Shown here piece by piece: positions 28,116 to 30,648 of a DNA stretch of 33,822 nt; positions within the stretch are counted from its first letter, which is position 1, and the number at the start of each line of letters is the position of its first letter. The notes beneath the pieces were generated by a model that was not told the origin of the DNA, ran no database searches, and saw only the letters and a program-made list of their open reading frames with translations. The position numbers and the translations under genes were made by a program. Source of the DNA: Bacillota bacterium (GTDB lineage: Bacteria; Bacillota; Dethiobacteria; DTU022; UBA8154); contig JAAZMI010000028.1 in assembly GCA_012798895.1 (NCBI GenBank), positions 1-33,822 on the forward strand. Direction: 5' to 3'.

Positions 28116-29507
28116 CTACCTTTTCCTGATGCGGGCCAGAAAAAAGCCATCCAGATCGTGTTTTGTGGGCCAGAGAAATATCTGCCCTTCTGTTTTTTCG
28201 TCCACGGATAGCGCCGGTGGTAAAAACGGAGAAAGAGGTGCCGGCCGGGCCAGAGGTTCTTCTGCAAGAAAACCGTCTATTATTTCCGTAGTTTCTTCAG
28301 GCTCGGTTGTACAAGCACTATATAAGAGCACTCCACCGGAAGACAGTGCCTGGAAAGCCGAGCGTAACAGTTGCTGCTGCAGTTGCGAGAGGGAAGCGAT
28401 GTCTTCCGGCCGTCGCCTCCATTTTAGATCGCCTTTGCGCCGGATTACACCAAGCCCCGAACAGGGAACGTCCAAGAGAACGCGCCGGAAAAGGCCCTGC
28501 CATTGAGGCGGCAGCGAACGGCCGTCGATATTTTCGGCCTCGACGATCTGGACTCCCTGACGCGCACAGGCAGCCTGGACTAATTTAAGCCGGTGTGGGT
28601 AGAGATCGGCGGCGATGATGCGACCCTGGTTTTTCATAAGGGCGGCCAAATGCGTGGTTTTGCCCCCGGGGGCGCTGCAAAGGTCTAAAACCAGCTCCCC
28701 GGGCTGCGGATTTAACAACGTTGCTGCAAGCATCGACGATTCGCCCTGCACCTGGAAAAGGCCCCGTTGGAAACTTTCCAACTCCGCAAGCCTACCAGCC
28801 AGGTTTAGGTACAGTCCCACGGAGGTATAGCGGCATTCCTGTGTTCCGGCCCCTTCTTCCTCTAAAACTTTTTGCAGCTCATCGCGCGAAAGCCGCAAGG
28901 TATTCGTGCGAATAGTTAAAGGCGGGCGCTGATTGCCGGCTGAGCAATGAGCTTCCGCGGCTTCCAAACCCAAGTTTTCTATCCACCGCCGGGCCATCCA
29001 AAGGGGGTAAGCGTAGAAAAGGGAGAGGTAGCGTGCCGGATCTTGTTCGCGGGAAGGCCAGGGCAGCTTATTTTTTTCCCGTCCAATCTTTCTCAAGACA
29101 GCATTGACCAACCCGGCTACTCCCTTATGGCCATAGCGGTGGCCCAGTTTAACTGCTTCATCCACAGCCGCGGCCTCTGGGATGCGCTCCAGGTAGAGTA
29201 ACTGATAGGTGCCTATTCTAAGGATATTGCGAATCCAGGGGGTAAATTTTTTTAATGGCCGGGTGGAATATAAAGAGATAACCCAGTCCAGGGTCTGCAG
29301 ACGCTGGATAACACCGTGGGCAAGTTCAGTTAACAGAGCCCTTTCGGCAGGGGTAAAGGAACGCTGGGCCAAGACGCGGTTCAAAACGAGGTTTAAGTAG
29401 GCCCCTTTTTCTTCTACTTCTTTAAGAATCAGCAAGGCTGCTTCTCTGGCACCAACCTCGCCTTGCTGCGAAGAATCTTTCGAGCTGTTGCGCTTTGAAA
29501 AGGTCAT
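28116..29507 (-). CDS. rsmB: 16S rRNA (cytosine-967-C5)-methyltransferase RsmB
   Basis: This SAM-dependent RNA methyltransferase (463 aa) has an N-terminal NusB-like RNA-binding domain (about residues 20-155) and a Rossmann catalytic domain. SAM motif I reads LVLDLCSAPGGKTTHLAAL. The catalytic cysteines lie in DVPCSGLGVIRRKGDLKWRR (motif IV) and LLYSACTTEPEE (motif VI). The second motif is usually YSTCT followed by EEN, so SACTTEPEET is slightly unusual. The ATG has aaggag eight bases upstream. In many Firmicutes rlmN follows; here stp comes next. Upstream is a repeat-filled spacer. Confidence 0.95.
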   Translation of the reverse strand: MTFSKRNSSKDSSQQGEVGAREAALLILKEVEEKGAYLNLVLNRVLAQRSFTPAERALLTELAHGVIQRLQTLDWVISLYSTRPLKKFTPWIRNILRIGTYQLLYLERIPEAAAVDEAVKLGHRYGHKGVAGLVNAVLRKIGREKNKLPWPSREQDPARYLSLFYAYPLWMARRWIENLGLEAAEAHCSAGNQRPPLTIRTNTLRLSRDELQKVLEEEGAGTQECRYTSVGLYLNLAGRLAELESFQRGLFQVQGESSMLAATLLNPQPGELVLDLCSAPGGKTTHLAALMKNQGRIIAADLYPHRLKLVQAACARQGVQIVEAENIDGRSLPPQWQGLFRRVLLDVPCSGLGVIRRKGDLKWRRRPEDIASLSQLQQQLLRSAFQALSSGGVLLYSACTTEPEETTEIIDGFLAEEPLARPAPLSPFLPPALSVDEKTEGQIFLWPTKHDLDGFFLARIRKR

Positions 29508-29973
29508 GGATTTAGCTCCTTATCTTTAGTGGTGGTGGAGGATGTAGTGAGCTCCGGGTTCAGCTCAGAAAGTTCTACGACCCAGCTCCGGCCTATGATG
29601 ACCTACCCAACCAAGCAGCCCATCAGGCAACTTTTGCTAGAGGTGCAACGCCAAGTTCCGCTCGGCAAGTTCTACTGTTTTCCTCGAGCCTACGATGATC
29701 TTCCCGACCAAATTCCCATCCACGGTCATACGGCCGGCCACAGGCGTTCTGTCGGCGGGGCCATCTTCAACTCTCGTTTCGCAGTGAACTTGTTCTCTCG
29801 CCCCACAAGTTGTTGCACCTCTAGCAAAGAAGTTGCCGGTATGAAATGAACAAGTGGATAAAAAATCTAAATTCATGGCCGCACGACCGGCCACAGGTAT
29901 CCTGTCGGCGGGGCCATCTTAAGAACTGTGCTGCGCCGAAAGAGGCAGATGAAAAGCCCCTTTGCCACAGCGG
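29508..29973. repeat. Mosaic repeat region between the DUF6391-type gene and rsmB
   Basis: This 466-base spacer is built from repeats. A 37-base direct repeat (29731-29767 and 29884-29920) matches at 33 positions by eye. A 66/67-base direct repeat (29558-29624 and 29655-29720) is about 70% identical. An inverted repeat has 24- and 26-base arms (29626-29649 and 29812-29837), differing only by two extra bases. Read on the - strand, the 37-base copies both encode DGPADRxPVAGR, and the 66-base copies share LVG...IxG...VEL.E.N. The region looks like several overlapping copies of a small decayed element or gene family. No transposase is present. Confidence 0.7.
29637..29894 (-). pseudogene. Open frame of 85 codons within the mosaic repeats, possibly a decayed gene
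   Basis: This - strand frame starts at a GTG (or ATG at 29876) and ends at TAG inside an inverted-repeat arm. It contains GNFFARGATTCGAREQVH, then EDGPADRTPVAGR and GKIIVGSRKTVELAERN. A second DGPADR copy lies just upstream in the same frame after a stop, and a third, degraded LVG...VEL copy lies downstream. I recognise no domain. Mostly synonymous or conservative differences between the DGPADR copies hint that this frame was once translated. A fortuitous open frame in repeat DNA is the alternative. Confidence 0.3.
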
Positions 29974-30618
29974 TTAATATTGCATCAGCCGGCGCGTCCG
30001 CACGAAATAACGCCGAGGTTGAAGCCCGAAATTCCAAAAACCCCGGTTTGCGCTTCTCACTTCAACGCCGGCGATCTCGAATCCTTCGATCCGCGTGGAG
30101 GTCGTTAGATATTTTTGGAAAATTCGGCCAAGGTGCGGCCCTAAAAACTGTGCACCCACCAGGGCCAGCAAAATATAAAATAGGCCGGAATATCCTGCTT
30201 TCCAGAGAAGAAGAATGACCAAAACAGAGGAGACAAAGTTTGCGGCAAGTATACTCGTGCCGCAACGATTGTGAATAGCCAGGTCTTTTTCCCCTTCTCG
30301 CAGGCGTGCCAGGCCAATTCTGGCAGCTTCCTCCACGGTATAAGGATCAACGGGGCCCTGGATAATAAAACCGTCTTCTTGCCCCAGGCCGGCGATATTT
30401 AGAGGGCCATAATGTTCTTCGATTACGTTGATTGTAGCATGTTCCAGAGCATGGTTGGCCCTGAGCTGCTGGTTGAAAGCGATCTTGATCAACTGGTAGG
30501 GAATTGTAAAGATATTAAAAAAAGAATGGATGGCAAATTGAAAGGGTAAAAAAAATAAATTGACCAGCAAAAAAAGAACAACTGGCCAAAATAATATAAT
30601 TAACAAAAAGGTGAGCAT
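29974..30618 (-). CDS. DUF6391-type membrane protein
   Basis: This protein of 214 residues has a long N-terminal hydrophobic region (about residues 1-45) and a second hydrophobic pair (about 125-160). Between them lies a cytoplasmic-type segment with ANHALEHATINVIEEHYG and LAIHNRCGTSILAAN. The LEHAT and IHxxCGT signatures fit the family annotated as DUF6391, whose function is unknown. The conserved His, Glu and Cys could bind metal, which is inference. I prefer the ATG at 30618 with ggggagagg close upstream over a TTG 15 bases earlier. It follows the metallopeptidase gene by 30 bases and is probably cotranscribed with it. Confidence 0.75.
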   Translation of the reverse strand: MLTFLLIILFWPVVLFLLVNLFFLPFQFAIHSFFNIFTIPYQLIKIAFNQQLRANHALEHATINVIEEHYGPLNIAGLGQEDGFIIQGPVDPYTVEEAARIGLARLREGEKDLAIHNRCGTSILAANFVSSVLVILLLWKAGYSGLFYILLALVGAQFLGPHLGRIFQKYLTTSTRIEGFEIAGVEVRSANRGFWNFGLQPRRYFVRTRRLMQY

Positions 30619-30648
30619 AGCGCCTCTCCCCAAATTTTAAATAGAAAC

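Follow-up and report, generated by a model that had tools for sequence, protein, structure and literature searches.

The closest described counterparts of the locus studied here are an RNA family and several mobile DNA systems. The TwoAYGGAY motif was listed by Weinberg et al. (2010) as probably an RNA, without a cis or switch role and with a function not known, in the part of that report available to us (PMC2864571). A CsrA-type motif, and binding of CsrA, have been proposed for it in the available part of another study (PMC4333381), and Rfam gives the family (RF01731) the type Cis-reg. Our literature search, in which few subscription papers were covered, turned up no paper that describes TwoAYGGAY as mobile. 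Among mobile elements, IS1272 (IS1182 family) is described, in the available text of two studies, as inserting into stem-loops, several of which are terminators, without a fixed sequence, leaving no target duplication and deleting or replacing part of the stem-loop (PMC4923244; PMC5678879). REP palindromes have been described, in an accessible excerpt, as hot spots for IS elements (PMC1525189).

Here, we have analyzed a window of 33,822 nt (contig JAAZMI010000028.1 of assembly GCA_012798895.1, a Bacillota bacterium), in which one intergenic spacer carries a mosaic of repeats. We consider it probable, at roughly 0.8, that this mosaic is a decayed copy, with nesting, of a MITE-like foldback element that is non-autonomous and would be mobilized by a trans-supplied enzyme recognizing stem-loops.

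Repeat mosaic between rsmB and the DUF6391 gene

The features of the spacer and its flanks are as follows (H1 and H2, first and second hairpin; sense of the units is the minus strand).

28116-29507, minus strand: rsmB, one flank of the spacer
29508-29973: host spacer between rsmB and the DUF6391 gene, carrying the repeat mosaic
29531-29624, minus strand: outer unit, 3' half, from the end GGTGGTGGAGGATGTAGTGAGCTCC to the H2 loop; half-core match from model position 93
29625-29873, minus strand: putative insertion of 249 nt, made up of the inner unit and its linker, into the H2 loop of the outer unit; uninterrupted units occur elsewhere, and the outer halves meet at model positions 92/93
29626-29649, no strand assigned: inner unit arm GGCAACTTTTGCTAGAGGTGCAAC, ends by eye
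29648-29810, minus strand: inner unit core hairpin, branched, with two terminal hairpins; match to model R1, E 7.7e-38
29812-29837, no strand assigned: inner unit arm GTTGCACCTCTAGCAAAGAAGTTGCC, ends by eye
29838-29873, minus strand: A+T-rich linker of the inner unit, placed by eye; similar linkers in L028, L033, L036 and L037
29874-29940, minus strand: outer unit, 5' half with the first hairpin; half-core match to model position 92, end approximate
29974-30633, minus strand: DUF6391 gene, the other flank of the spacer

The best direct repeat (29730-29767 and 29883-29920) is identical at 34 of 38 bases and reaches a score of 26, whereas none of 60 dinucleotide shuffles scores above 11; a repeat search lengthens it to 50 nt at 82% identity. 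The inverted pair has a perfect core of 17 nt (29633-29649 and 29812-29828; score 17, maximum 12 in 60 shuffles), which could be extended by eye to 24 and 26 nt (29626-29649 and 29812-29837). The initial annotation had claimed repeats in this spacer, and since both scores exceed all 60 shuffles they are real; the 37-bp direct repeat with 33 matches and the inverted pair with 24- and 26-base arms that it described were recovered. Its 66/67-bp repeat is also present (29558-29625 and 29655-29722), with an ungapped identity (45 of 68 bases, 66%) slightly lower than the 70% or so that had been given. The short gaps noted for the neighborhood agree with the 15 bp between the DUF6391 gene and the next ORF, measured from ORF starts. 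A coding reading of the ORF at 29529-29849 was dropped, as it has no Pfam hit.

In a same-genus genome (G001; locus L113, which matches L075 = JAAYRR010000111.1 where compared), the gap between rsmB and the DUF6391 gene is only about 9-10 bp, and at L076 the orthologous spacer is about 20 bp and lacks the element, both gaps having been counted by eye from the stop to the first in-frame start. No unbroken orthologous gene crosses the spacer in these two relatives, where the two genes nearly abut. Judging from these sequences, the block would be an insertion in the host or, less simply, the result of loss on two occasions. It should be noted that the genomes are drafts.

The mosaic may be read as an outer unit (29531-29624 and 29874-29940) whose second hairpin is interrupted, in its loop, by an inner unit together with a linker (29625-29873). 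The suggestion in the initial annotation of a small element family that had inserted or recombined is supported, with the refinement that the loop of one unit holds another, and nesting inside the family's own loop explains the mosaic described there. The outer unit breaks at model position 92 and restarts at 93, which is the edge of the H2 loop (87-92), with the junction ATG|GAT by eye; uninterrupted units were found at L037, L038, L039 and L041-L044. The 5' arm of the outer unit is truncated, with no CACTACATCCTTTCACCACC end found within 900 bases. Among 93 units there are 18 downstream half-cores: of the 12 with E<1e-7, four start at the model start and the other eight at positions 90-96, and the six weaker ones start at 94-115. 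The 35 upstream half-cores listed end at 90-98 in six cases (the window, L028, L083, L026, L011 and L200), at 59-75 in 18, at 81-84 in five, at 110-114 in three and elsewhere in three. The exact 92|93 split is clear in the window, and the upstream halves follow no such rule.

The several stopping places of the upstream half-cores are what might be expected if the mosaic arose from local duplication and slippage in hairpins, without insertion of one unit into another, and the likeness of the units, the existence of recombined copies and the tandem 3' parts at L040 point the same way. However, the outer halves in the window join at a single model position, and the arms and linker that belong to the inner unit are found in other contexts, so we regard such an origin as the least probable of the alternatives considered here. 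Under the nested-insertion reading, copies such as L029-L031 would fit recombination between the direct repeats of the outer and inner units, giving chimeric copies. At L040 (1-450), a portion of the unit with its linker is repeated in tandem, resembling a growing array.

Branched fold and relation to TwoAYGGAY

The uninterrupted unit L037 folds into a single long hairpin that forks at its tip (z of -10.0 and -11.6 on the two strands), and the full block in the window has a folding z of -3.5. In 35 aligned cores, both sides have changed in 24 of 41 pairs and 94.6% of the cells are paired, compared with 20-44% in slid controls. Four of five covariation measures beat all 500 shuffles, whereas 34 of the 500 reached the fifth, which concerns further pair types. 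On the minus strand of the window there are 74 G-U cells and 22 A-C cells, an excess which shows that this is the strand that folds. Because related sequences may beat shuffles without any constraint, more weight is given to the slid control and to the asymmetry between strands. In alignment A2 the H2 loops are mostly of the AUGGAU type and the H1 loops are AGGAY or AYGGAY (by eye); both loops are degenerate in the inner copy of the window.

Changes private to single copies gave a mixed picture. Private single changes hardly favor pairing (26 G-U versus 18 A-C in four genomes, and 8 versus 7 in the window's own genome, G000), whereas private double changes do, with pairing kept in 30 and broken in six across four genomes (mostly G021, G011 and G002; 3 versus 3 in G000). 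These double changes could stem either from subfamilies of some age or from selection acting on the copies. Covariation with a G-U preference on one strand, together with these double changes, would be in keeping with a multicopy regulatory or CsrA-sequestering RNA family, in which each copy is functional and proteins bind at the AYGGAY loops; the loops also fit the CsrA-type motif in the available part of the study mentioned above (PMC4333381), and RF01731 is typed as Cis-reg. The near balance of the single changes argues against it, as does the gene context considered below.

The RF01731 model aligns full-length (1-168) to L037 with 32 bits, and to G002:C105 with 40 bits, compared with a gathering cut-off of 43. 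None of 60 genomes passed this cut-off under the stricter filters; the window has no match to RF01731, nor does any other Rfam family reach its gathering score there. Conversely, of 30 RF01731 loci, our model R1 recovers 18 at E<=0.001 and 23 at E<=1, the other seven not being found. A closing stem with two AYGGAY-loop hairpins is present. On sequence and fold, the window element is a distant relative of TwoAYGGAY, which corrects the earlier statement that the element was not a recognized one; failure at the gathering cut-off bars filing it as a member of RF01731. Both have a long closing stem that bears a pair of neighboring hairpins, with AYGGAY-type loops on the same strand; both are multicopy, TwoAYGGAY in most genomes rescored, and their models hit each other reciprocally. 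They differ in that the window family falls below 43 bits, often has a first-hairpin loop one base shorter (by eye), and shows nested units and other arms. In a survey of the phylum, RF01731 matches were found in 50 of 398 genomes, 33 of them above the cut-off; on rescoring these 33, at least 28 had two or more matches and at least 16 had ten or more, the highest number being at least 55.

Copies, ends and insertion sites

The search of the host genome advised in the initial annotation returned 35 pieces matching the spacer, a number in which the spacer is counted and to which a single copy may contribute several pieces, with ends in common, and relatives were searched with matches in nine of 60 genomes, G000 among them. 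Many of the host pieces lie at contig ends, where repeats tend to fall in draft assemblies. At up to three mismatches, the common end GGTGGTGAAGGATGTAGTGAGCTCC occurs at 19 places in G000 and CACTACATCCTTTCACCACC at 18, and reversed control patterns gave no match; the end of the element in this genome reads GGTGGTGAAGGATGTAGTG. Five two-ended units measure 208-210 bp and three others 292-306. Model R1 was positive in at least 14 of 23 family genomes, with at least 26 matches in G000, 112 in G002 and 70 in G021, and one weak match (1.7e-6) in G001. No match to the window element was found in plasmid and phage records at E<=1e-5. The units are short and non-coding, with inverted ends and dispersed copies, as in MITEs. 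At L045, L117, L118 and L124, all in G000, REP-like palindromes GGGGACGGTTCTTTTGTG lie in or beside units, so that the spots taken by the units are shared with a second family of repeats.

Relative to genes, taken as the longest ORFs, 28 units lie in the same sense, 26 antisense, 12 between convergent and 12 between divergent genes (78 classified of 93). A mobile 5' leader, considered because units seemed to precede ribosome-binding sites, was dropped in view of this even orientation, and a cis-regulatory leader RNA was set aside as no consistent orientation to the downstream gene could be observed. The csrA gene (PF02599) is present in 13 of 23 family genomes, including G001, G011 and G021, and was not found in G000 (87.5% complete) or G002, the two being 88-89% complete and carrying at least 26 and 112 matches, respectively. 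A CsrA sponge was rejected, csrA not being found in the window's own genome and G002 though present in others. The even orientation and the distribution of csrA, as well as the many closely similar copies at differing gene ends in the genome G176, make the regulatory or CsrA-sequestering RNA family unlikely. With the mobile-element reading, single copies are probably without host function, which is its least certain step, and their structure is probably maintained by active source elements; as private double changes favor pairing, copies may still have a function.

In the window's family no target duplication could be seen: seven of 83 units exceeded the 95% level of the control, and by eye these were pieces of element arms. 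No preference for terminators was apparent either (12 convergent versus 12 divergent). The Rfam-type copies of G176 gave a different result. The best-scoring 40 are closely similar across about 265 bp, with CAGANTGTNGACAAA as their end sequence, and have both inverted ends matched in 36. A flanking direct repeat of score >=14 was present in 28 of the 40, compared with one of 1560 mismatched control pairs; 25 of the 28 span 17-29 bp and fold as a stem-loop with an energy no higher than -5.8 kcal/mol, among them repeats of 25 bp at L310, 28 at L313 and 29 at L328. Thirteen of the 40 lie in the same sense as their genes, 12 antisense, 14 between convergent genes and one between divergent genes, and this convergent excess indicates that the sites are gene ends, where terminators lie. 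Further copies in 684 kb of G176 are more divergent or partial, and at L346 (18175-18234) both inverted ends occur within about 60 bp, a still smaller derivative. A G176 copy matched nothing in plasmid and phage records at E<=0.01.

Among 37 RF01731 loci from many genomes, 29 had no direct repeat of score >=11. A stem-loop repeat flanks loci L180 and L256 of G089, and L168 and L252 are G176 copies; the repeat at L251 is 11 bases long and does not fold, and those at L164, L169 and L177 lie in arms or are not plain stem-loops. Since neither target duplication nor a terminator preference was seen in the window's family, the insertion mode of G176 is not transferable to it.

Mobilization and nesting

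By eye, no transposase was recognized among the 25 largest clusters of neighboring ORFs, the largest of which reads as a LysM-type protein and the second as out-of-frame element sequence, and 684 kb of G176 held no autonomous partner with the same ends. Y1 genes occur in 19 of 23 family genomes, the window's own included, which would suit REP-like palindromes mobilized on single strands by a Y1 (IS200/RAYT-type) transposase; so would the fold on one strand, the lack of a visible target duplication in the window's lineage and the REP-like GGGGACGGTTCT hairpins in or beside some units. However, no Y1 hit was found in G021 (86% complete) with its 70 or more matches, only one weak hit accompanies the 112 or more of G002, and G005 has seven Y1 hits and no element match. 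Across these drafts (two hits in G000, six in G011, 11 in G007, none in G019), copy number has no clear relation to Y1 hits, and Y1 mobilization was rejected on this ground. Long direct repeats also flank the G176 copies and, to our knowledge, are not a product of IS200-type insertion. We thus think it improbable that Y1 enzymes account for the family.

A dispersed unit of 160-210 nt, its branched hairpin retained through compensatory change, lies between two genes that nearly abut in relatives, and a second unit occupies its apical loop. The element may be moved by an enzyme provided in trans that recognizes stem-loops, so that copies would insert into hairpins, whether of the element or of other origin; in the related TwoAYGGAY lineages of the Rfam type they would insert at terminator-like stem-loops, which become duplicated. 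Loop splitting and stem-loop duplication may be one mechanism. Stem-loop recognition by such an enzyme has a precedent in IS1272, as far as the available text of the two reports goes (PMC4923244; PMC5678879). From the same text, stem-loop targets and the lack of target duplication are shared with the window's lineage, whereas IS1272, an autonomous element, removes or replaces a portion of the stem-loop; the window element instead splits the loop, and in G176 and at the two G089 loci the stem-loop is present on both sides.

Like MITEs, the units are short, have inverted ends, no recognized coding capacity and many intergenic copies without orientation bias; unlike them, the window's family keeps a branched interior, with no autonomous partner found and no target duplication seen. 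Its likeness to REP elements as IS targets, as given in the excerpt cited above, is that palindromic repeats attract mobile elements, but here element and target come from one family.

TwoAYGGAY, too, has more the look of a transposing element than of a conventional regulatory RNA, which offers a testable identity for a family whose entry in the available part of the 2010 report gives no known function (PMC2864571). We lean slightly towards a wider view, in which TwoAYGGAY and its relatives would form a wide Bacillota superfamily of stem-loop-targeting mobile elements rather than regulatory RNAs, some lineages duplicating a terminator stem-loop and others splitting their own apical loops to give nested composites. 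A flanking repeat consisting of a whole stem-loop would be an unusual insertion product, and it would allow intergenic spread with a terminator left on each side. Our data also call for caution, in that covariation and multicopy spread can signal a mobile element and not a riboregulator.

Variation in the arms was seen in other genomes. At L206 (G002) and L234 (G011), which belong to one genus, units with different arms precede the same gene, clpC by eye. Units of G002 (for example, L191, L199 and L206) have a 5' extension beginning TAACCGCCAYGACCCTGCGGGTCACAA and the terminus TTTTCATAYTA, with TA at both ends by eye.
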